DNA from: Flavobacterium terrigena
GTDB taxonomy: Bacteria > Bacteroidota > Bacteroidia > Flavobacteriales > Flavobacteriaceae
Direction of reading: 5' to 3'
NCBI RefSeq assembly: GCF_900108955.1
Contig: NZ_FNYA01000002.1
Span: 620,001 to 684,000, forward strand
Length of the DNA stretch: 64,000 bases
Both the position numbers and the translations under genes were made by a program. Positions 37,579 through 55,994 of the stretch are shown in pieces (the first letter of the stretch is position 1; every line of letters begins with the position of its first letter). A model generated the notes under the pieces. The model made no database searches. It was not told the origin of the DNA and saw nothing but the letters and a program-made list of their open reading frames with translations.

Positions 37579-37652
37579 GGTCCTATAGCTCAGTTGGTTA
37601 GAGCACCTGACTCATAATCAGGTGGTCCCTGGTTCGAGCCCAGGTGGGACCA
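37579..37652 (+). tRNA. tRNA with CAT anticodon (Ile2 type likely)
   Basis: The 74-nt gene folds into a cloverleaf: acceptor GGTCCTA with TGGGACC plus discriminator A, D-arm GCTCAGTTGGTTAGAGC, anticodon arm CCTGACTCATAATCAGG and T-arm CCTGGTTCGAGCCCAGG. CCA is not encoded. The GACTCATAATC loop region resembles tRNA-Ile2, whose CAT anticodon is modified to lysidine, more than elongator tRNA-Met, but a Met identity cannot be excluded without comparison. The element is inserted at its 3' end and restores the tRNA sequence. Confidence 0.92.
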
Positions 37653-37654
37653 CT
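37609..37654. repeat. attL (46-bp direct repeat, tRNA 3' end)
   Basis: From GACTCATAATCAGG to GGGACCACT this segment is identical to 55949-55994. It covers the anticodon, variable, T and acceptor regions of the tRNA plus two flanking bases. Confidence 0.95.
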
Positions 37655-40433: not shown

Positions 40434-41663
40434 ATGGCAAGTATAAAAATAGTATTAAGAGATAAAACTACTAATGATGGGTTATATCCTGTTATTTTAA
40501 GAATAACTAATAAAAGAAAATCTAAAATAATATCCTTGAATCTAAAATGCTCATTATCTGATTGGGATGATACTAATAATCAATTTAAAAAATCATTCCC
40601 AAATCACACTCAAAGTAATTTAGTATTAGCAAAGAAAAGAGAGTTGGCTTTTAAAATCATTAATCAGTTTGAACTAGATGAAGTTGATTTTAGTTTAGAA
40701 CAATTTGAAGAGAAGTTTAGAGGAATTGAACCTAATAAAACTACTGTATTAGAGTTTTGGGAAGAAGTTATTTCAGATTTAAATAAATCAGGAAAGGCTG
40801 GAAATGCTATAGCTTTAAAAGAAACTAAAAATTCATTTTTTACTTTTTGTAAAAAGAAAAACTTAATGTTTAAGGAAATAAACCCTTATTTATTAGATAA
40901 GTATGAAGTATTTCTGAGAGAAAATAAAAATGCTGATGGAGGTGTTGCTTTTAAAATGAGAGAACTTCGTTCTCTTTTCAACAAAGCAATTAAGAAAGGT
41001 GTAGTTGAAGAAAAACATTATCCTTTTAAGATATATAAAGTTTCAAAACTAAAAATAGGAAATATAAAAAAAGCATTAACAAGAGATGAAGTAAGATTGA
41101 TTGAGAATTTTGATGAAACATTATACCCAAATCTTGCAGAAGCAAAAAGATTATTTTTATTCTCTTACTATTGTAGAGGTATCAACTTCTTTGATATTAT
41201 GCAATTGGAATGGTCTAACATTTCTGGTGGAAGAATAACATATATCAGGTCAAAGACAAAAGGAAAATTTAACATTGGTATTCTTAAACCAGCACAAAAT
41301 ATATTAGATTATTATAAGAATGTTTTTTCTAAAACTAAATATGTCTTTCCAATTTTACTAAGTGAAAACATGACACCTACCCAAATACAAAACAGGAAAC
41401 ACAAGAAACTTAAAAAATTTAATAGTGATTTAAAAAAAATTGCTGTGATTGTTGGAATTGACAAACCCTTAAGCAGTTATGTTGCTAGACATAGTTATGC
41501 AACAAATTTAAAACAATTAGGTGTTTCTACTGATATTGTTAGTCAATCAATGGGACATCAAAATGTAGCAATTACTTCTGCCTATCTTAAGGACTTTGAA
41601 GATGATGTAATTGACAAAGAAAATGAAAAACTTCTCAATGAACCATTAGAATTGTATTTCTAA
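40434..41663 (+). CDS. tyrosine recombinase (integrase) of the element
   Basis: The 409-residue protein has an N-terminal arm-binding domain (about 1-95), a SAM-like core-binding domain (about 100-205) and a C-terminal catalytic domain. Catalytic residues visible are Arg248 (CRGINF), Lys276 (KTKGKF), Arg352 (YVARHS), His375 (MGHQ) and Tyr384 (SAYLKDF). The first His of the HxxR pair is Tyr349, a change often seen in Bacteroidota integrases. It should recombine the 46-bp tRNA core. The gene lies 2.8 kb from attL rather than at the end, which is unusual. It has its own terminator at 41674-41710. Confidence 0.95.
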   Translation: MASIKIVLRDKTTNDGLYPVILRITNKRKSKIISLNLKCSLSDWDDTNNQFKKSFPNHTQSNLVLAKKRELAFKIINQFELDEVDFSLEQFEEKFRGIEPNKTTVLEFWEEVISDLNKSGKAGNAIALKETKNSFFTFCKKKNLMFKEINPYLLDKYEVFLRENKNADGGVAFKMRELRSLFNKAIKKGVVEEKHYPFKIYKVSKLKIGNIKKALTRDEVRLIENFDETLYPNLAEAKRLFLFSYYCRGINFFDIMQLEWSNISGGRITYIRSKTKGKFNIGILKPAQNILDYYKNVFSKTKYVFPILLSENMTPTQIQNRKHKKLKKFNSDLKKIAVIVGIDKPLSSYVARHSYATNLKQLGVSTDIVSQSMGHQNVAITSAYLKDFEDDVIDKENEKLLNEPLELYF

Positions 41664-42783: not shown

Positions 42784-42806
42784 AAACCCAGCTAAAGGCT
42801 GGGTTT
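42784..42806 (-). terminator. terminator of the Ntn-hydrolase operon
   Basis: AAACCCAGC-TAAAG-GCTGGGTTT is a 9-bp perfect stem. On the minus strand it is followed by five more T and lies 3 bp after the stop of the 61-residue gene, which supports that small gene as real. Confidence 0.88.
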
Positions 42807-42809
42807 ATA

Positions 42810-42995
42810 TTATTTTTTTTCAAATTGTTGTTTAACAACATTTATAAGATGGTCAGAAACTACAGAAGAGATTTGCTTTGGAGACATCCCTGCAATTATT
42901 TTATCCTTAGCAATGCTCTTAACAGGCTTTGCTAGTGAACAAGTAGTTACTGGCTTTAATGTGTTAAACTGTGAGTCTAAAGTTAGGTTATTCAT
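42810..42995 (-). CDS. 61-residue partner of the Ntn hydrolase
   Basis: The protein MNNLTLDSQFNTLKPVTTCS... has 61 residues, a basic helical C-terminus (ISSVVSDHLINVVKQQFEKK) and no recognised domain. It starts 6 bp after the stop of the Ntn-hydrolase gene and ends 3 bp before a strong terminator, so the two are one operon. Pro/Thr/Ser/Lys composition in the middle and a helical tail could suit a regulator, adaptor or substrate of the hydrolase. That idea is inference from position only. Confidence 0.6.
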   Translation of the reverse strand: MNNLTLDSQFNTLKPVTTCSLAKPVKSIAKDKIIAGMSPKQISSVVSDHLINVVKQQFEKK

Positions 42996-43001
42996 AATTG
43001 A

Positions 43002-44291
43002 TTAATTAAAATAATTGTCAAAAAAGGATTTATTTAATTCAGGTTTAAAATAGTGTTTGCGTTTTATCCAAATAAATCCATCACCTTTGGAAATTATTGC
43101 AACATCTACGGGTCCACCTACACTTTCTTCTGCAAATGTAATTCTTCTTTTTAAATATGTCAAATAAATTAGACTTTCTGCCATTTCTGCTAAATCTTCT
43201 TTTGAAAGATTATTTACTGCATTCATTAAAGGCTGAATATAATTTAATGTTTTTGTTTCATCAATTTTAACTTGATGCTCTCTAGTTAAAAAGTCATAAT
43301 CAAAATTACGCAATTTTTCTGATAATTCTGTATTCGTGTCCCCTAATTCTTCTAAAATCAATGTGTTGTATTTAGTTAAAGTCTCTTTTAGATTTTCTTT
43401 ATATGTGTAATCTAATGTAGGGTCTATACCTGTTAATATTGTATCTATAACATCAGTCTGGGCAAAAGGACAAATTGCCCCTGCATTAAAATGATTTATT
43501 CTTGCAGTATTTCTTTCATCATCATAATACCTTAATTTATCTTTAAAAACTAAAGAAACATTAATTGGGAATAATTGCGGATAGAGTTCATCTTCACCAT
43601 ATCCAACAAAAATCAAGCCAGTGTAATTATTATATTTTTCAGGTGTCTTAAAAACTAAATAAAAATATCTAAATAATTTTTCTTGAAGTTCAGCACTAAT
43701 AGTATAGCCGTTTTCTGTAAAAACAGTATCATGATGATGCTGAAATTCAATTGCAAGAAACTCTCTGAACTCTTCTAAAGTAATATCCTTAAGCTCTGGA
43801 CATATATCAGTTCTATCACCAAGTTGAGTTATAGACTCATCTATTGTTAATTCTATCAATCTAATTATTTCAGCTTTATTTTCATCAGAAATTATATTCA
43901 ACAATTCTTTTCTTTCAGAAAGTGCAACATTTAACAACTTATCAAATGTTGTTCTAAAAAAAGATTCCAAATATATTTTTTGAATTCCATCTTCTGTAAA
44001 ATACGATTTAGAATTCAAATATCTAATGAAATCCATTTTGTAATCTTCTACTCTTGGAAATGAGTTGCTCCCCAATTGCTTTCTATACATTTTTATAATT
44101 ACTTCCCAAGGTGTTGACAAAAAAGACGCTGAATTATAAAGCATAATACCTACAGGATGTTTTTTTGATAATGTAAAAACCTTATTGGCTCTATTAAAAA
44201 TTTTATTCCCATTAGAGCCACCTATTGTAACAGCACTATCTGCTGCAATTGCTACAGCTTGTTTATTTAAAATCCCAACTACTGCTGTCAT
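43002..44291 (-). CDS. proteasome/HslV-like Ntn hydrolase, extended
   Basis: After removal of Met1 the 429-residue protein begins TAVVGILNKQAVAIAADSAVTIGG. This aligns by eye with HslV and proteasome beta subunits: Thr1, Asp17 in AADS, Gly23, and a Lys (Lys36 in RANKVF, three residues late; HslV has Lys33), followed by HPVGIMLYNSASF in place of the HslV GFAGG strand. The protein is over twice as long as HslV (about 175) and continues with helical segments (about 60-220) and a beta segment (NYTGLIFVGYGEDELYPQLFPINVSLVFKD) of unknown type. It should be a cytoplasmic threonine peptidase or amidohydrolase. No HslU-like ATPase is adjacent. Divergent from the DUF262 pair. Confidence 0.72.
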   Translation of the reverse strand: MTAVVGILNKQAVAIAADSAVTIGGSNGNKIFNRANKVFTLSKKHPVGIMLYNSASFLSTPWEVIIKMYRKQLGSNSFPRVEDYKMDFIRYLNSKSYFTEDGIQKIYLESFFRTTFDKLLNVALSERKELLNIISDENKAEIIRLIELTIDESITQLGDRTDICPELKDITLEEFREFLAIEFQHHHDTVFTENGYTISAELQEKLFRYFYLVFKTPEKYNNYTGLIFVGYGEDELYPQLFPINVSLVFKDKLRYYDDERNTARINHFNAGAICPFAQTDVIDTILTGIDPTLDYTYKENLKETLTKYNTLILEELGDTNTELSEKLRNFDYDFLTREHQVKIDETKTLNYIQPLMNAVNNLSKEDLAEMAESLIYLTYLKRRITFAEESVGGPVDVAIISKGDGFIWIKRKHYFKPELNKSFFDNYFN

Positions 44292-44541: not shown

Positions 44542-46218
44542 ATGATAAATCCAGAAGAATCTTTACAATCAATAAATGACTTAATTGGCGAAAAATTTCA
44601 CATTCCTAATTATCAGAGAGGTTATAGATGGGGTAAAACTCAAGTTGAAGAATTGTTAAATGATATATGGGACTTTACCCAAGATAGAACAAAAGATGAG
44701 ATATATTGCCTTCAACCAATTGTAATTAAAAAGAATGATGATACTTGGGAATTAATTGATGGTCAACAAAGAATGACAACTATTTTTTTAATTCTAAAGC
44801 ATTTAAAACATTTAATAGATGGAGACATTAACAACATTGAGATTGTCTATCAAACCAGAAAAGGGAGTGAAGATTTTTTATCAAATATTAATGAAAAAGA
44901 CAAAGAAGTAAATATAGATTTTTTTCACATTTTTAATGCTAATGATTATATAGAAAAATGGTTTGCAAGTAAGGCAAATAATGGCATAAGAAATGTAAAA
45001 ACTATATTTATTAATCCATTTTTAGACAACACAAAAGTGATATGGTATGAGGTTGAAAAACATGCTAATTCAATTGACATATTCACTAAATTAAATATTG
45101 GAAAAATTCCTCTTACAAATGCTGAATTAATCAAAGCTCTATTTTTGAGCAATTCAAACAATAGCATAAATGAAGAAAAACAATTTGAAATTTCTAATGA
45201 CTGGGACAATATAGAATACAAATTAAGTAATGAAAACTTTTGGTACTTTTTAAATCAAAATCTTAATGATATAAATCCAAGAATAGATTTTTTGTTTGAC
45301 ATAATTAATACTGATGTAAGTTATAGTTCTTATTCATCATTTCATTTTTACAATGAAAAAATTAAAGATGAAGGTACATCTGTGGTAAGTTTGTGGAATG
45401 ATGTTAAAACATTGTTTTTAACCCTTGAAGAATGGTATAATGATAGAGAAATTTTTCATCTGATAGGTTTTTTAATCAATGAAGGTGAGAATATTGAAAG
45501 TATTCTAAAAAACTTCAAATCAAAAAAGAAAAAAGATTTTATTAATTATTTAAAATCAAAGGTTTTAAAACTAATGATAGAAATTGATTTTTCAGAAATA
45601 TCATATGGTAAAAAAGATTACTCACAAATAAAAAGAACACTTCTTCTATTTAACATAATAACTATTGTTAAAAATAAAGAATCAAATATCAAGTTTCAAT
45701 TCGATAGATATAAAAAAGAAAAATGGGACATTGAACATATACATTCTACAAAAGAAAATATGCCTAGCACTTCAGATGTTCAAAAAGATTGGTTAAAATC
45801 CCTTTCTGAATATTTAGAGAGTAAAGAAGATTTTAAATTACTTTTTGATGAAATTTCAGGTTTTGATTTTTTAGAAAAAACACCAGAAGAATTTGAACTG
45901 TTGTATAACAAAGTTATTTCCATTTTTACAGATGAGGGAGATAATGAATACAACAAAAATGGTTTATCAAATCTAACATTACTTGATGCAAATACAAATA
46001 GGAGTTATAAAAATGCAATTTTTCCAATCAAGAGAAACACCATCATCAAGAAAGATTTAGAAGGTGTATTTATACCAACATGTACAAAAAATGTTTTTTT
46101 AAAATATTACAGTACCAATGTTAGTCAAATGAATTTTTGGGGAGGTAATGATCGAAAAGATTATTTCACAAACATAGTAAATACAATAACTGATTATATA
46201 GGCATCAATGAATCATAA
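44542..46218 (+). CDS. DUF262/DUF1524 protein (GmrSD-type)
   Basis: The 558-residue protein has an N-terminal DUF262 domain of the ParB/Srx fold with IPNYQRGYRWGKTQVEELLNDIW (about 21-43) and the key LIDGQQRMTTIFLILKHL (about 73-90). The C-terminal DUF1524 region has WDIEHIHS (about 394-401) and GLSNLTLLDANTNRSYKNAIFPIKR (about 473-497), the HNH-like nuclease part. GmrSD enzymes cut modified phage DNA and use NTP at the DGQQR site. Both domains look intact. It overlaps the second DUF262 gene by 11 bp. Confidence 0.9.
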   Translation: MINPEESLQSINDLIGEKFHIPNYQRGYRWGKTQVEELLNDIWDFTQDRTKDEIYCLQPIVIKKNDDTWELIDGQQRMTTIFLILKHLKHLIDGDINNIEIVYQTRKGSEDFLSNINEKDKEVNIDFFHIFNANDYIEKWFASKANNGIRNVKTIFINPFLDNTKVIWYEVEKHANSIDIFTKLNIGKIPLTNAELIKALFLSNSNNSINEEKQFEISNDWDNIEYKLSNENFWYFLNQNLNDINPRIDFLFDIINTDVSYSSYSSFHFYNEKIKDEGTSVVSLWNDVKTLFLTLEEWYNDREIFHLIGFLINEGENIESILKNFKSKKKKDFINYLKSKVLKLMIEIDFSEISYGKKDYSQIKRTLLLFNIITIVKNKESNIKFQFDRYKKEKWDIEHIHSTKENMPSTSDVQKDWLKSLSEYLESKEDFKLLFDEISGFDFLEKTPEEFELLYNKVISIFTDEGDNEYNKNGLSNLTLLDANTNRSYKNAIFPIKRNTIIKKDLEGVFIPTCTKNVFLKYYSTNVSQMNFWGGNDRKDYFTNIVNTITDYIGINES

Positions 46219-48400
46219 AATATCATATTTAGCACTAATTAAGAATTTTAAAATTGAAATTCCTATTATTCAGAGAGATTATGCTCAAGGCAGAAAAGAC
46301 AACAAAATTGATGAAATTAGAAACTCTTTCATTGATGATATTTTTGAAGCTTTAGTAGTAAAAAAAGAGCCTATTGACTTTGATTTTATTTATGGCTATA
46401 TAAAAAAAGACACTAATAATAGTGACGTTTTTATTCCTTTAGATGGACAGCAAAGAATTACAACTCTATTTTTACTATACATATTTATAGCAAATAAAGA
46501 AGATAGATTAGAAGAAATAAAAACTCATTTACTAAACTTCACATATAAAACACGATATACTTCCAGAGACTTTTGTGTTGAATTAGTAAAAAATGGTATT
46601 GACTTTTCTGATTATGATGAAAATGAAAAAGTGTCAAATATTATTTTAGATTCTTCATGGTTCTTTTTGTCATGGAAAAATGACCCTACAATAAAATCAA
46701 TGCTTGTAATGCTTGATACAATTCAATCAAAATTTTCGATTAATGATGAAGTGTTTTCTTTATTAATTGATGAACAAAATCCACCTTTTATATTTCAATA
46801 TATTGAATTAAAAGACTTTGGTCTTACTGATGACTTATACATTAAAATGAATGCAAGAGGGAAAATTTTGACTGATTTTGAAAATTTCAAAGCTCGTTTA
46901 GAACAACATATTGAGAAAGAACATTCGACACTTCTACCAGAATTTAATAGAAACATAGATAACTCTTGGACTGACTTTTTTTGGGAGTTCAGAGATAGCA
47001 AAAATAGTATTGATACACAATTCTATAATTTCTTTAAAAACATAGCTCTAAATAATTACGCATCAAAATATAATTCTGAAACTAAATATTATGATTATTT
47101 AGAAAATCTGAATGTGTTATCAAGTAATTACAATGTGAATTTTGGAATTTATAAAAAATTAGACTGTTTTGATGCTGATACTATTTTAAGAATTATAAAA
47201 ATATTAAATGTTATAAAAGCCAACAACAAAGAGTATGTTGCATTATTAAATCCTTCAATATTGAGTGATGCAGGACTTTTTAAAACTTTATTTTCAAGAA
47301 GCTTAACAAGAGAGGAACGACTTTATTTTTATGCTTATACAATGTATATAAGTGAAAACGATAATATTGATGGTCTTGAAAATTGGATGAGGGTTATTAG
47401 AAATTTAATTGAAAGTACTTTTTATAATCGTGATGATGATTTTAGAAAATCAATAGTATCAATTAAAAAAATGTTACCCTTTTCAGGTGACATACTTAAT
47501 TACATTATCAATAATGAAATTACAGGTTTCTTAAATGAACAAGTAGAAGAGGAAGTTATAAAAGCCAAACTAATTTTAATAAATGAAGATTGGGAAAGAG
47601 AAATTAAACAAATAGAAAATCAAGGTTACTTCAAAGGTCAAATTAGCTTTTTACTTAAATTTTCTGGTATTAAAGAGTTACATGATAATTCAGGTGAAAA
47701 TTTCAAAAGTGAATTAACTAATGATTTTTTTGATAGTTTTTTAAACTACAAGAATAAGACAGAATTGTTTTTTAATAGTTATGGATTAATTCCATTAAAA
47801 GACAACCTTATAGAAAGAGCCATACTAACTTATGGTGATTATACTATTGATAAAGGGAGAAATAGCAGTTTTCTAAAAAACGATGACAGGGATATTAGTT
47901 GGAGAAGATTTTTGAGAAATGATAGCAAAAACAGTTTTCTAAAAGAATTAATGAACAATGTTACATTAGAAAATTATGAAGCTGATTTAAAATTTATTAT
48001 CAATAGCTTCAAGAATGAAAACAGTTGGAGGTATTATTTTATAAAACATTCAGAACTAATAAATGCTTGCGGTAAGAATAGATTTTTTAGATGGGGATAT
48101 GAAGGCAAATCAATTTTACTTTTAGAAAACAACACAACTTTTGGCTATCACTATGAATACTATTCTTATGCATTATGCTTAGAATTAATAAAAACATTCA
48201 AAGTTGATGTAAAATATGAAATGAATAAGTCTGTAGATTATATGAAGTATATATCGAAAATCAAAGATGAAAAAATTGACATTTCTTATGATACATATTC
48301 AGGTGAATTTCAATATTTAGTTGAGTATAAGAATAGAAGTTTTGAAATTAAAACCCAAAAAGAAGTAATCAATTATTTAAAACAAGAAAATATTATTTAA
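46208..48400 (+). CDS. second DUF262 protein of the pair
   Basis: The 730-residue protein has an N-terminal DUF262 domain (IPIIQRDYAQGRKD near 18-31, FIPLDGQQRITTLFLLYIF near 75-93) and MNARGKILTDFENFKARL, a motif following the DUF262 core. No HNH/DUF1524 signature is evident, so the C-terminal half (about 330-730) is of unknown type. It overlaps its partner by 11 bp and is surely co-translated. A likely reading is a two-component restriction system where this subunit recognises or regulates and the other cleaves. Confidence 0.85.
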   Translation: MNHKISYLALIKNFKIEIPIIQRDYAQGRKDNKIDEIRNSFIDDIFEALVVKKEPIDFDFIYGYIKKDTNNSDVFIPLDGQQRITTLFLLYIFIANKEDRLEEIKTHLLNFTYKTRYTSRDFCVELVKNGIDFSDYDENEKVSNIILDSSWFFLSWKNDPTIKSMLVMLDTIQSKFSINDEVFSLLIDEQNPPFIFQYIELKDFGLTDDLYIKMNARGKILTDFENFKARLEQHIEKEHSTLLPEFNRNIDNSWTDFFWEFRDSKNSIDTQFYNFFKNIALNNYASKYNSETKYYDYLENLNVLSSNYNVNFGIYKKLDCFDADTILRIIKILNVIKANNKEYVALLNPSILSDAGLFKTLFSRSLTREERLYFYAYTMYISENDNIDGLENWMRVIRNLIESTFYNRDDDFRKSIVSIKKMLPFSGDILNYIINNEITGFLNEQVEEEVIKAKLILINEDWEREIKQIENQGYFKGQISFLLKFSGIKELHDNSGENFKSELTNDFFDSFLNYKNKTELFFNSYGLIPLKDNLIERAILTYGDYTIDKGRNSSFLKNDDRDISWRRFLRNDSKNSFLKELMNNVTLENYEADLKFIINSFKNENSWRYYFIKHSELINACGKNRFFRWGYEGKSILLLENNTTFGYHYEYYSYALCLELIKTFKVDVKYEMNKSVDYMKYISKIKDEKIDISYDTYSGEFQYLVEYKNRSFEIKTQKEVINYLKQENII

Positions 48401-48493: not shown

Positions 48494-49174
48494 TTAGCTA
48501 AAAAAGATTATGATTTTTTTGAAAAACAAATAATTGAATTTTACACTATCACCATAAAAAGTGTTTTTCTTAAAATTTTTTTCAGTTTTGATATTAACAA
48601 AAAAAGGAGTTTTACAAAAAATGTATAATGAAACTAAATTATGATGAAATTTGTATAATGAGAAACTTAACTCATTCATAGCTTCTTTATTACAAAGTGG
48701 AGACAATACATATCCCCTTACTTTATTGTCACCTCTTCTCCTTAATTCATTTGTCCTGTGGTTTCCATCAATCACAATATAAGTTTCTATTGGTTTATAG
48801 TATGAAACATATATTGGCTTAAAACTCAATTCATTTTTGTCTTTATAAAAACTTAACTTTTGTGGATTAAGATTTAGTTCATCAGAATATATCCTGTCAA
48901 TATCAATATCGATTAAAGGTAAATTATTTATTGAGATTATATTCTCAATCTTTCTAATTGACCATGAAATTTCATAAAAATCTCCTCCAATTCCTGTTTC
49001 TATTATTTGAGAATATCTTTGGATAAAGTCATAATGAAGATTTGTTTTTTTTGAATCATTAACTATTTGATTATATTGAAATAGTAACTCTTCTTTAAGA
49101 TTTGGAAAAAGTAGAAATAATTTTTTCTTTTCAAAAAATGAAAAATAGAAATCAAAAGTGTTTTTTATCTCCAT
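48494..49174 (-). CDS. ParB/Srx-like protein
   Basis: The 226-residue protein has the short signature IVIDGNHRTNELRRRG at about 133-148, the DGNHR form of the ParB/sulfiredoxin fold, preceded by the PIYVSYYKPIETY strand pair. Relatives bind NTP or act as nucleases, but no complete motif set is visible. It is the last gene of a three-gene operon, overlapping the CoiA-like gene by 10 bp. The C-terminus is Phe/Lys/Ile-rich and uncommon. Confidence 0.55.
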   Translation of the reverse strand: MEIKNTFDFYFSFFEKKKLFLLFPNLKEELLFQYNQIVNDSKKTNLHYDFIQRYSQIIETGIGGDFYEISWSIRKIENIISINNLPLIDIDIDRIYSDELNLNPQKLSFYKDKNELSFKPIYVSYYKPIETYIVIDGNHRTNELRRRGDNKVRGYVLSPLCNKEAMNELSFSLYKFHHNLVSLYIFCKTPFFVNIKTEKNFKKNTFYGDSVKFNYLFFKKIIIFFS

Positions 49175-50874
49175 AATAAATTATTTAATTGACCTATTTC
49201 AGGATATAAAGCTCCAAATAAATAATCTATACTGTAATTAGTTTTAACAACTTTGGAATAATGTAAATACAGCTTTTTTTGAAAGGATTCTTTCAAATCT
49301 AGCTCAATTAGTTTATCATACAATCCAAACTCTTTAAAAGCTAATTCTATATATTCCCAATATTCAGGATAGTATTCAATTACATTATTAGCAAAATCTA
49401 TCCATTTATCTGCTTTATATTTATAACCAATTATTCTATTTTGTTTGGCACTTTCTATTATGCAAATTACTCTTTCAAAGTTAAATAAATATTGAACAAA
49501 ATTATGGTTTTCAAAACCATTTGCTAAATATGAAATGGTAATTAAGCTATCAGCTTTATGAGTCTCATTAGGAAAAGAATCAACTATATATTTTTCATCT
49601 TCTTTTGTAAACTTGTATCCTTTTTTAAGTATTAATTTGAATAAAGACACAAAATGTAAATTTTTATTATTGAATAAATAGTTAAGGACATTATTTCCAT
49701 TATTGTCCTTCATTAAATTAACATTAAATTCAATGTAACTTGATTCTAAAATAAATTTTATAAAATGAGAATCATATTTAGTAGCTTTAGTAATCCATTC
49801 AAATAACTTATGATTTTTATCTAAATTTAATCTTGAGTTAAATGCAATTAGCTCATTTTCATTAAAATTCATTAATTCCTCTGTAACACTATTATATACT
49901 ACAATTTGGCTATCTTTTAATCTTTTAATCTCATTAAGTATATCATCTATTTTTATTACTAATCTTCTTTTTGCTACTAACTCTTCATCTAGTTTTTTTT
50001 GTTCTTCTGCTTGTTTTAATTTTAATGTTTTCTCTTTATTTATTTTTTCCTCATTTCTCTTTTGCAACTCAATTATTGTGTCTTTTTCTTTTCCAAAATC
50101 ATAAAAATAAACCTCATAGTTATCTTTGTCAAATTTTAATTTTTCTATTGAAATATTTACCTCATTCCATTTGTCTCTAAATTCATTTTCATTTGATAGA
50201 AAAGTAAATTTGTATGTACAGGTTAAACTAAAATTTTCTTGTTCCTCATTCAGTTTAAAAAAATTCTGATGTTTAGATAAATACTTTATGTCTTTTTCCA
50301 TTTGAGACTGACCTTTAACATCAAAATCATCTAAAATCCAAATTAAGTATATTCCTTTAGCTTTATAAAAATCATATCTACTTAGTATGTACCTTTGAGA
50401 TAAATTAGAGAGTTGAATTTCAAACACAATCTCTTTGTCATAATACTTACAATAAACATCTGGTTTTCTTTTTTCTTTACCATTAAGAATAAATTTATTG
50501 TCAATATTGACTTCACTAATTCCCTCAATCTTTGAAGCTGAATTACCTATTCTATTCTTTAAATATTTATGCCTTTCTGATTCTTTAGATTTATATATTT
50601 CATAATATTCTTCTTTTACTTTTGGACTTAAATTTTCATCTTTTAAAATGCAATATTCATCATTTGGAAAGTGTTTAAAGTAAAGCCTATCATAAATACT
50701 TGTAGATACAGAGTATTGATTTTCACATTCTAAACAGATAGGGTCAATCTCATCTCTATTGTACTTTTTTCTTATTTCAAATCCAGTTAATCTGTCATCA
50801 AATAATTCTTCTGCATCTATTATTTTGCCTGATTTTTTATCGAATGCATATCTAATTGCTCTTTCTACTCCCAT
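49165..50874 (-). CDS. CoiA-like (DUF6035-type) nuclease protein
   Basis: The 569-residue protein begins with a Zn-ribbon-like part (Cys47-x-x-Cys50, His68, Cys75) as in CoiA. A PD-(D/E)xK-type nuclease core follows: Glu100 with RHKYLKN, RKPDV (Asp139) and IVFEIQLS (Glu152, Gln154), then RYILSRYDFYKAKGIYLIWILDD. A coiled coil (about 255-310) and a helical part with ankyrin-like NNGNNVLNYLFNNKN complete it. It recalls DUF6035 of Bacteroidota. It probably acts on DNA, either in defence or uptake. It starts 1 bp after the peptidase fusion gene stop and overlaps the ParB-like gene, so all three form one operon. Confidence 0.72.
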   Translation of the reverse strand: MGVERAIRYAFDKKSGKIIDAEELFDDRLTGFEIRKKYNRDEIDPICLECENQYSVSTSIYDRLYFKHFPNDEYCILKDENLSPKVKEEYYEIYKSKESERHKYLKNRIGNSASKIEGISEVNIDNKFILNGKEKRKPDVYCKYYDKEIVFEIQLSNLSQRYILSRYDFYKAKGIYLIWILDDFDVKGQSQMEKDIKYLSKHQNFFKLNEEQENFSLTCTYKFTFLSNENEFRDKWNEVNISIEKLKFDKDNYEVYFYDFGKEKDTIIELQKRNEEKINKEKTLKLKQAEEQKKLDEELVAKRRLVIKIDDILNEIKRLKDSQIVVYNSVTEELMNFNENELIAFNSRLNLDKNHKLFEWITKATKYDSHFIKFILESSYIEFNVNLMKDNNGNNVLNYLFNNKNLHFVSLFKLILKKGYKFTKEDEKYIVDSFPNETHKADSLITISYLANGFENHNFVQYLFNFERVICIIESAKQNRIIGYKYKADKWIDFANNVIEYYPEYWEYIELAFKEFGLYDKLIELDLKESFQKKLYLHYSKVVKTNYSIDYLFGALYPEIGQLNNLLWR

Positions 50875-50875
50875 A

Positions 50876-52102
50876 TTACCAATTCCTTTTTGAGCCCAAA
50901 ATAGAAAGTCTTCTTAATAACTCTTTTTCATTTTCTGCATTGGAATTATATATAGGTTTCTCAATTAATTTTAAACTATTCAACCTATATTCAACACTTA
51001 TCTTTGAAACATTAAAATGAGTGGCTAATCTCTTAATTACCTCGTCAAAATCAGACTTATTACATTCTTGCTCGTCTAAAAAAATCCTCCCCGCATTTCT
51101 AATCCCTAACTCTTTTTGTGTTAAAATTAAAATTGCTCTAATACTATGCTCTGGCATTAGTAAACTTGAAGCGAAACAATTTGCTTGCCATTCAATCCAA
51201 TTTTTAGGATTTCTCAAAACATAACTTTGCTCAAAAAAACTAAAACTGGTGTCTTTAAAGTTATTATATATTGATTTGTTTACTTTCAAATTCTTATGTA
51301 AAACAAAATGACCAATTTCGTGAGCCAAAATGAAAGGTTCTCTAGAGGTATCTTTTATTGAAGAATTCACAATAATTTCATTTTTTTCTGAATCAAAGTA
51401 ACCTAATACTTCATTTTTTAATTCATCTTCTATACTTGAATATTTAAACTCTAATTCGTATTTACTTTTTAGATATTCAAGTAAATCATATAGAGGTATT
51501 GATAGTGCATGATTTAAGATATATGGCTTAAACTCATTTATGAGATTTGTAGCAATATTGTCAATTTGTTTTGTAGATAGTTTTTTTAATCCTTCGATTT
51601 TTGTTGGAAGTAAAGCTTCTTGAATTGCATTTAAAATAATTTTATCAAAGTCATCTTCCTTGTTTGTGTTTTTCTCGCTTTTATGATAAACAATATTATA
51701 ATTTTCTTCATCTACTTCAATTAACATCATTCCATGTGAAATCACTTCTTCAGTAGCACCACTTTGTAACTTGCTATTCGTAACAAAAACACCTTTAATT
51801 GCATAATCTTGAATTTCACTAATATATTGAGCAAATAGAGCAACATCATCTACTGGAATTGATGATGAATAATTTTTACATTCAATTAAATAAAGCAAAG
51901 TAGGCTTATTAGCATTTGGAGGTGTCAATTCAATAGATAAATCAAAAATAATATCCTTTTTTCTTCTTGTAGAATAATACCCCTTCTTTTTATAAATCTT
52001 ACAATACTCAGGTATTAAGCCTAGTTCCTTATTAGTTAATGCACTTTCAATAATTGCATATGACTTTTCCTCAAAATCATTTCCTATTTTTACTGTATTC
52101 AT
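50876..52102 (-). CDS. Mrr-like nuclease fused to ImmA/IrrE peptidase
   Basis: The 408-residue protein joins two domains. Residues about 1-135 form a PD-(D/E)xK restriction-type core with Asp50/Asp54 (KKDIIFDLSIEL), Glu74-Cys-Lys76 (LIECKNYSS) and GVFVTNSKLQSGATEEVISHGMMLIEV, as in Mrr-type proteins. Residues about 200-330 are an ImmA/IrrE zinc peptidase with HEIGH (261-265) and Glu304 (WIEWQANCFASSLLMPE), and a 'SLLMP' segment. ImmA/IrrE proteins cleave XRE-type repressors in mobile elements and in the DNA damage response. Fusion to a nuclease domain makes a sensor/effector unit plausible. It leads the operon with the CoiA-like and ParB-like genes. Confidence 0.82.
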   Translation of the reverse strand: MNTVKIGNDFEEKSYAIIESALTNKELGLIPEYCKIYKKKGYYSTRRKKDIIFDLSIELTPPNANKPTLLYLIECKNYSSSIPVDDVALFAQYISEIQDYAIKGVFVTNSKLQSGATEEVISHGMMLIEVDEENYNIVYHKSEKNTNKEDDFDKIILNAIQEALLPTKIEGLKKLSTKQIDNIATNLINEFKPYILNHALSIPLYDLLEYLKSKYELEFKYSSIEDELKNEVLGYFDSEKNEIIVNSSIKDTSREPFILAHEIGHFVLHKNLKVNKSIYNNFKDTSFSFFEQSYVLRNPKNWIEWQANCFASSLLMPEHSIRAILILTQKELGIRNAGRIFLDEQECNKSDFDEVIKRLATHFNVSKISVEYRLNSLKLIEKPIYNSNAENEKELLRRLSILGSKRNW

Positions 52103-55948: not shown

Positions 55949-55994
55949 GACTCATAATCAGGTGGTCCCTGGTTCGAGCCCAGGTGGGACCACT
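55949..55994. repeat. attR (isolated tRNA 3' fragment)
   Basis: The 46 bp are identical to 37609-37654. Bases before it do not continue the tRNA, so it is not a gene. Confidence 0.95.

Follow-up and report, generated by a model that had tools for sequence, protein, structure and literature searches.

Does the proteasome-like threonine hydrolase carried by a mobile element of Flavobacterium terrigena work alone, and what could its work be? The question was raised by a stretch of 64,000 nucleotides (contig NZ_FNYA01000002.1, positions 620,001 to 684,000; hereafter the window, in whose own numbering all coordinates are given), in which an earlier note had described an open reading frame (ORF) of 429 codons as an extended, HslV-like N-terminal nucleophile (Ntn) hydrolase. 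That note stopped one gene short, since a small ORF of the same strand just downstream (42810-42995, minus strand) was overlooked. We lean towards the view that the two genes form a module in which the small protein, hereafter the partner, would be a dedicated regulator or client of the enzyme. A physical and functional pair is likely, the role of the partner being split between inhibitor or regulator on the one hand and substrate on the other.

The hydrolase ORF of the earlier note was confirmed and found unbroken on the minus strand, with an ATG immediately 5' of a threonine codon, and it is a single copy in the F. terrigena genome. Its features are the following.

43002 to 44291, minus strand: Ntn hydrolase, predicted proteasome-beta fold, resembling the subfamily "proteasome homolog with multiple insertions 4" (PMI-4), 429 amino acids (aa); from the ORF, phrog_5990, the model and alignments
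44286-44288, minus strand: nucleophile Thr2 (Thr1 once Met is removed)
44238-44240, minus strand: Asp18
44181-44183, minus strand: Lys37
43626 to 44009, minus strand: insertion 1, helical and of low conservation, after the first helix pair, about residues 95-222 (bounds approximate; from the model)
43206 to 43343, minus strand: insertion 2, separating the two long helices that make up the second pair, about residues 317-362 (bounds approximate; from the model)

Pattern scans yielded 224 relatives from genome contigs and a further 105 from viral contigs, and the loci analysed were the best 80 of each. The family alignment contained 74 rows, 7 of the 80 genome loci having been excluded as truncated or frame-broken. 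The window hydrolase was matched end to end by phrog_5990, a family of unassigned function (E 4e-109, 1-427/427), and had no match in Pfam and NCBIfam at E<=10, so that no HslV or proteasome model came over the cut-off. The genome contained no match to PF00227 (proteasome/HslV) at E<=0.001, while 89 of the 118 genomes sampled from the phylum had one; among the family members, 14 of 74 matched PF00227 weakly (best E 0.0033). The HslV-like N-terminus seen by the earlier note was recovered by hhalign, which placed residues 2-41 of the 74-row alignment on residues 2-38 of HslV (E 0.0035, with a probability of only 9% and an HslV side of 3 rows only) against E 0.27-0.79 for five column-shuffled controls. 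In this register, established with the same three HslV rows, the match runs from Thr1 onwards, Asp18 falls on Asp17 and Lys37 on Lys33. At residue 2, 72 of the 74 rows have T and the other 2 have S, and D18, K30 and K37 are invariant in all of them; the catalytic Thr/Ser1, Asp17 and Lys33 of the PMI-4 type are accordingly present in 74/74 rows as T/S2, D18 and K37. The estimated and approximate counterpart of the oxyanion-hole Gly47, residue 53, is G in 46/74 and N in 25/74 rows, and N in the window copy. A start codon directly precedes the Thr (Ser in L014 and L015) in 77 of the 78 loci whose match spans the N-terminus; in the exception, L003, the nearest start codon lies 12 nucleotides (nt) upstream of the nucleophile, and a further in-frame start exists within 60 nt upstream in 13 of the 77. 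At the other end of the protein, the stretch W408-F415 (W-I-K-R-K-H-Y-F), which follows the last core strand, is almost invariant in the alignment of archaeal and bacterial sequences and nearly as constant in viral copies, while the rest of the C-terminus varies.

The structure of the hydrolase was predicted with AlphaFold2 from the 74-row input (predicted local distance difference test score, pLDDT, 86.9; predicted template modelling score 0.85). In a Foldseek search of the PDB, the top matches were Anbu and 20S beta subunits (E 1.4e-4), with a template modelling score over the whole query of only about 0.26 because of the insertions, and the top viral match was a phage protein named proteasome beta (E 1.7e-4). 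VIA-align superposed the model on the Archaeoglobus fulgidus 20S beta subunit over 184 residues (Z 16.7, root-mean-square deviation 3.4 A), with model residue 2 on chain residue 1. From this model we are confident that the hydrolase has the proteasome-beta (Ntn) fold, which is the outcome of the comparison with proteasome relatives proposed in the earlier note. The note had also placed some 250 extra residues, as a stretch without a nameable domain, past residue 60. This extra C-terminal domain was rejected, since the model distributes the added length over two insertions within the proteasome fold: helices 101-215, between helix 81-94 and strand 224-230, and the segment 317-362, between helices 291-316 and 364-385. 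The mean conservation of the insertions (0.21 over residues 74-222 and 0.23 over residues 291-360) is lower than the mean column scores of the three core stretches (0.64, 0.41 and 0.69). Matches of the family profile to Cullin were attributed to chance (best full-sequence E 0.002, in the helical insert only), as were single weak Pfam matches of individual hydrolases.

This architecture is known. Fuchs, Alva and Lupas described in 2021 22 new subfamilies of proteasome homologs (PMC8665760), of which PMI-4, with long insertions after H1/H2 and between H3/H4, is the largest in the survey table, with 501 sequences at 90% identity. Its range covers Proteobacteria, Firmicutes, Actinobacteria, Bacteroidetes, the Planctomycetes-Verrucomicrobia-Chlamydiae (PVC) group, Cyanobacteria and Euryarchaeota as well as phages; PMI-3, with insertions at the same two places, has neither Bacteroidetes nor phages in its listing (PMC8665760). 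As judged from the model and the passages of the survey cited here, both PMI-3/PMI-4 insertion sites are present in the window hydrolase, and the occurrence of its relatives in many bacterial phyla, Euryarchaeota and phages agrees with PMI-4. Set against this published description, the window hydrolase and its relatives match PMI-4 by architecture and distribution, the basis of the assignment because published PMI-4 sequences (e.g. HDY66466.1) were not compared directly. They share the proteasome-beta core with Thr1, Asp17 and Lys33, the two insertions, the broad spread over phyla and phages and the lack of a propeptide. The family is consequently already known and not new. Of the earlier reading as a threonine peptidase, the fold, the conserved nucleophile, the mobile element and the restriction-like neighbours are supported; novelty of the hydrolase is not. 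The hydrolase resembles HslV in its N-terminal 40 residues, which align from Thr1, and in its fold class, but differs in length (429 aa vs about 175), in its two helical insertions and in having no adjacent HslU. Anbu and 20S beta, although its top structural matches, are only ~8-20% identical to it and lack the insertions, and a small co-encoded partner stands here in place of the alpha subunits.

The passages of the survey cited here report no gene context suggestive of function for the new subfamilies (PMC8665760), whereas in our loci a small downstream partner was found at almost all copies examined. In the window, it begins 6 nt past the hydrolase stop, has no second copy in the genome and is followed by a putative terminator.

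42810 to 42995, minus strand: partner, 61 aa, with a first part predicted to be disordered and a predicted C-terminal helix (about residues 39-59); from the ORF, neighbour clustering, selection and the model
42784 to 42806, minus strand: intrinsic-terminator-like hairpin right behind the partner stop, terminator-like on the plus strand also; from a sequence scan

Three terminator-like sites were found in the region, compared with 0.6 +/- 0.9 expected. Promoter-like sites showed no excess (15 vs 12.9 +/- 3.5 in shuffles) and no promoter is therefore claimed.

When the neighbours of 173 loci (132 of them independent) were clustered, three clusters of small ORFs emerged, with 6, 6 and 4 members, always at position +1 downstream; the remaining fixed-place clusters printed were flavobacterial, a HemB-like gene at -1 (4 loci) and a third gene at +2 (3 loci). 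A rule was then set up that asked for an ORF on the same strand, 45-90 aa long, with its start at -60..+30 of the stop; it was applied to the 121 independent hydrolases with sufficient downstream DNA and, as controls, to the remaining genes of 200 aa or more from these loci, taken from simple longest-ORF calls. It was passed by 116 of 121 hydrolases vs 164 of 801 control genes (p 8e-62) and, in a strict ATG-only form with tighter limits, by 110 of 121 vs 67 of 801 (Fisher p 3e-81), while shuffled downstream DNA passed in 12.8% (loose) and 6.2% (strict) of cases. Among the five failures of the loose rule, the partner overlaps a longer hydrolase tail in L096 and L173, and L170 has an ORF of 35 aa. 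The partner start lies close to the hydrolase stop or overlaps it, with a median gap of 3 nt. In later loci that had played no part in finding the pattern, a partner was present in all 7 that hold the hydrolase C-terminus (L083 and L225, which lack it, were left out of the scoring); four of them brought new partner sequences (L175, L176, L179 and L224), two of which start at +33 and +56, outside the limits of the rule. The satellites Javan421 and Javan468 also carry partners.

The ratio of nonsynonymous to synonymous changes (pN/pS) of the partner was 0.09-0.71 in all 71 computable of 72 pairs, which overlap and are non-independent and from which L002, L004, L012, L018 and L165 were excluded. 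On this measure the partner ORF evolves under purifying selection, as a protein-coding gene would. The relationship between partners was analysed by phmmer on 123 sequences (125 rows minus L002, whose hydrolase is truncated, and L082, the copy of the window itself): 91 fell into one cluster, with 657 links in total, whereas shuffled partners, in five trials, never gave a cluster above 3 or more than 11 links, and 93 control ORFs gave zero links. By these links the partners appear to be, for the most part, one family. When 44 of the 123 were searched against Pfam and PHROGs, no family was matched by more than 2 of the 44, and with the PDB included there was no reproducible match; single weak Pfam matches of partners were ascribed to chance, as were PDB matches of the partner profile (best E 3e-4, no stretch passing alone, mostly repeat or designed helical proteins).

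The aligned partners begin with a polar part and end in a helix-like C-terminal stretch; the middle between them reads like SMxEFexxFFPKSF in archaeal copies and in many bacterial ones. A motif of the type F-[FN]-x-P was found in 49 of 121 partners vs 7.7 +/- 2.5 in shuffles. The read-through model of the window's hydrolase and partner shows the partner as mostly disordered over its first ~37 residues (pLDDT about 30-40, rising to 66) and helical over residues 39-59 (pLDDT about 85), with no strand added by it. The Pup-proteasome of actinobacteria likewise has a disordered protein of ~60 aa encoded beside a proteasome subunit, and Pup ends in a GGQ/GGE motif. The partners described here differ from Pup by the lack of a C-terminal GGQ/GGE, and no fixed nearby place was seen to hold a ligase or a ring ATPase.

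Several observations weigh against the proposed module. Two of the 121 hydrolases, L052 and L122, have no partner at all; L143 passes the rule by an 81-aa ORF starting with TTG, its likelier partner being 37 aa long; and the records of satellite Javan198 and phage Javan85 stop at the hydrolase stop codon, so that no partner is visible there. Since the phmmer cluster leaves out 32 of the 123 partners (30 once it is extended by a profile), unrelated partners are possible, and the retention of only the best 80 relatives per scan means that distant copies are under-sampled. The F-[FN]-x-P-like motif was chosen post hoc and is missing from the partner of the window. Taken over its full length, the partner is only modestly more amphipathic than shuffles (mean z 0.9; z>2 in 23 of 119), and its divergence tracks the hydrolase core (rho 0.41) no less closely than the inserts (0.36 and 0.33). 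Finally, the read-through model gave neither coordinates nor an interface score, so that docking is not demonstrated, and we infer the interaction and the activity of the pair from sequences and models.

How could such a pair work? HslV and proteasome beta subunits expose their threonine by autocleavage of a propeptide. In the hydrolase, methionine aminopeptidase would instead remove Met1 and expose Thr1 without any autocleaved propeptide, because the start codon precedes Thr or Ser in 77 of the 78 loci and homologs of this kind are described as lacking propeptides (PMC8665760). A permanently exposed nucleophile would have to be restrained in another way; the partner may supply this restraint, or may be the client of the enzyme. 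The earlier note had seen no HslU next door, and the Pfam matches of the window neighbours, AAA_24 on the other strand and GmrSD_N, indeed include no HslU or ClpX model; an HslUV-like pair was rejected, given this and the absence of an HslV match in the genome. By eye, no ATPase-looking cluster at a fixed adjacent place was recognised among the 40 most frequent neighbour clusters. As no such ATPase was seen and insertions at these sites are expected to disturb ring stacking (PMC8665760), the enzyme should not be a shredder of the HslUV type; it would rather be a selective endopeptidase or transpeptidase, closer to connectase than to HslV. The C-terminal helix of the partner would dock on the hydrolase, its disordered middle, which in many copies but not in that of the window carries the F-[FN]-x-P-like motif, lying in or near the active-site cleft as inhibitor or substrate, and the module would act only once a trigger removes, competes for or completes the partner. 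It would travel as accessory cargo of prophages, phage satellites, plasmids and integrative elements and settle in some chromosomes.

In F. terrigena the pair rides on an element of ~18.3 kb, inserted at a tRNA-Met gene and bounded by 46-bp repeats.

37579 to 37653, plus strand: tRNA-Met (CAT), the integration site
37609 to 37654, plus strand: left attachment repeat, 46 bp, in the 3' part of the tRNA
55949 to 55994, plus strand: right attachment repeat, 46 bp
40434 to 41663, plus strand: tyrosine integrase of the element (Pfam Phage_int_SAM_5, Phage_integrase, Arm-DNA-bind_5)
44542 to 46218, plus strand: GmrSD_N protein, 558 aa, with a weak GmrSD_C below the cut-off, divergent neighbour and restriction-like cargo (Pfam; PADLOC HEC-06 and other models)
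46208 to 48400, plus strand: second GmrSD_N protein, 730 aa, cargo (Pfam)

The mobile element and the defence-like cargo block of the earlier note are both borne out, the former by the repeats, the integrase and an empty site in the relative G012, the latter by restriction-like neighbours (the GmrSD_N pair, a CoiA nuclease and Mrr_cat). In G012 the tRNA runs directly into the right flank, the match to the left flank extending to position 2262 of locus L185 and a ribE homolog following from 2696. The genes of the element comprise the integrase, an HTH_17 protein, an AAA_24 ATPase, the two GmrSD_N proteins, CoiA-nuclease/DUF6035 and Mrr_cat-M78. The two GmrSD_N (DUF262) genes at 44542-48400 overlap each other and diverge from the hydrolase; they are not part of the hydrolase-partner module. 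Three co-directional genes at 48494-52102, encoding a ParB/sulfiredoxin-like protein (named by eye), CoiA-nuclease/DUF6035/DUF7829 and an Mrr_cat + M78 peptidase fusion, are possibly a separate defence system. A repeat of the tRNA end is found as 50 bp about 16 kb downstream in G006 (G006:C10:19848-36115) and about 21 kb downstream in G112 (G112:C1:98634-120140), where other elements seem to use the same tRNA-Met.

The occurrence of the hydrolase is patchy. At E<=0.001 it was detected in 3 of 101 genomes of the genus (one partial, one doubtful) and in 10 of 395 of the phylum, 6 of the 10 being full length; at E<=1e-20 it was detected in 4 of 397 genomes of the family, the window's own genome being included in each count. 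It is widely present in uncultured bacteria and archaea. By tblastn, 13 phage records carry it, nine of them genomes of Streptococcus phages or satellites, and 10 plasmids. In Stenotrophomonas phage BUCT708 the gene adjoins the lysis genes and is oriented against the flanking genes, in a Providencia phage it sits between antiterminator Q and holin, in Javan85 it is the last gene, and in a Porphyromonas phage it lies within the head-tail gene block. In five marine Flavobacteriaceae loci (L022-L026) the pair has the same chromosomal surroundings: upstream lies a HemB-like gene of 329 aa in 4 of 5, and downstream a CNNM-like gene in all 5; these names were given partly by eye, with Pfam ALAD and CNNM matches among the scanned neighbours. 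In a quick tree of 121 sequences, in which the prophage-like plasmid stretch L170 was scored as viral, viral and cellular copies interleave (well supported branches force at least 7 changes), and the archaeal copies require at least 3 changes. On this tree the gene has therefore crossed between viruses and cells, and has probably crossed between domains too.

On four rhizobial plasmids, opened out of six matched, the hydrolase lies within ~1.5 kb of a multiubiquitin-ThiF cluster, which was absent from the other loci examined up to that point. These loci come from Rhizobium (L171, L226 and L227) and Mesorhizobium (L173), and the cluster has two arrangements: three are related (ThiF 78% identical) and one, only 33-41% identical, is placed differently. 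The hydrolase frame is apparently broken, with two tblastn pieces each, in the R. leguminosarum plasmid (L227) and in a Hyphomicrobiales plasmid (H15); in L227 the partner ORF is intact.

What the pair does for its carriers may be answered in several ways. A defence role is possible to judge from the gene context: the carriers are phages, satellites and plasmids, several phage copies (BUCT708, the Providencia phage and Javan85) occupy typical cargo positions, the family-level occurrence is patchy, and GmrSD, CoiA-nuclease and Mrr genes are neighbours in the window. In its specific form, an abortive antiphage system that would be cargo of temperate phages, satellites and islands and whose protease effector would be held inactive by the partner and released on infection, it nevertheless remains tentative and rather unlikely. 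PADLOC gave no match at E<=1 for either the hydrolase or the partner, and around the cellular copies no defence family was found in more than 3 of 142 scanned neighbours, a count made without a control set that therefore shows neither enrichment nor its absence (the 142, from 322 neighbour proteins, are 145 random draws minus 3 touching contig ends). The Porphyromonas phage copy inside the head-tail block speaks against this role too, as does the fixed neighbourhood in marine Flavobacteriaceae, which is unusual for a defence gene. That same neighbourhood, with its HemB-like and CNNM-like genes, and the wide presence in uncultured bacteria and archaea would be expected of housekeeping or stress proteolysis, the partner being a small adaptor or assembly factor and the mobility incidental; yet the hydrolase is missing from most sampled genomes of the genus and phylum, and the interleaving of viral and cellular copies and the archaeal changes in the tree argue against such a role, which we regard as distinctly unlikely.

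Two adjacent genes with a start near or overlapping a stop, found on elements and plasmids, recall a toxin-antitoxin-type module that would stabilise its element, with the hydrolase as toxin and the short, partly disordered partner as antitoxin. This seems very doubtful in view of the copies without a visible partner (L052 and L122) and of the 44 partners searched, which, having no reproducible Pfam match, show no known DNA-binding domain; the intact partner beside a broken hydrolase in R. leguminosarum does not discriminate. Connectase of methanogenic archaea, a monomeric, ligating proteasome homolog of the same fold class (PMC8665760), offers another model, in which an acyl-enzyme would be formed with the partner and a piece of it transferred to a target protein, as in a modifier system. 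The dedicated, small and mostly disordered co-encoded protein would suit this scheme, and connectase shares with the hydrolase a helical insertion and the lack of a propeptide; however, its insertion lies between strands 3 and 4, whereas those of the hydrolase come after residues 94 and 316, and the passages cited mention no co-encoded substrate for it (PMC8665760). The partners have no common C-terminal conjugation motif (no search for a connectase recognition motif was made) and no target is known, and a connectase-like ligation is in our opinion highly improbable. Somewhat less remote, though still speculative, is a broader proposal: a two-component enzyme/modifier system common to phages, satellites, bacteria and archaea, in which a threonine hydrolase derived from the proteasome cleaves or ligates its own disordered protein of ~60 aa, which would serve as regulator, signal or protein tag. 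We return to the module of hydrolase and dedicated regulator or client as the reading that we favour. Neither the partner nor the two-gene module turned up in searches of the open-licence PubMed Central (PMC) literature, in which no peptide-gated or modifier-based switch was described for PMI proteins either. Among the papers listed, PMC8665760 is the only one on this family; PMC10936438, on ESCRT, contains its DOI, and PMC10154401 makes use of connectase.

The co-encoded partner, present at almost all copies examined, turns PMI-4 into a directly testable two-protein system. The neighbourhood of a proteasome homolog and a bacterial ubiquitin-like cluster on rhizobial plasmids is a noteworthy pairing, and the enzyme/modifier proposal, if true, would make the pair the proteasome-family counterpart of a peptide-gated or modifier-based switch. 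Should the partner prove to be substrate or inhibitor, it would open a way to the function of proteasome homologs that stand alone, apart from ring-shaped shredders, and might also yield a new protease or ligase tool with peptide specificity.

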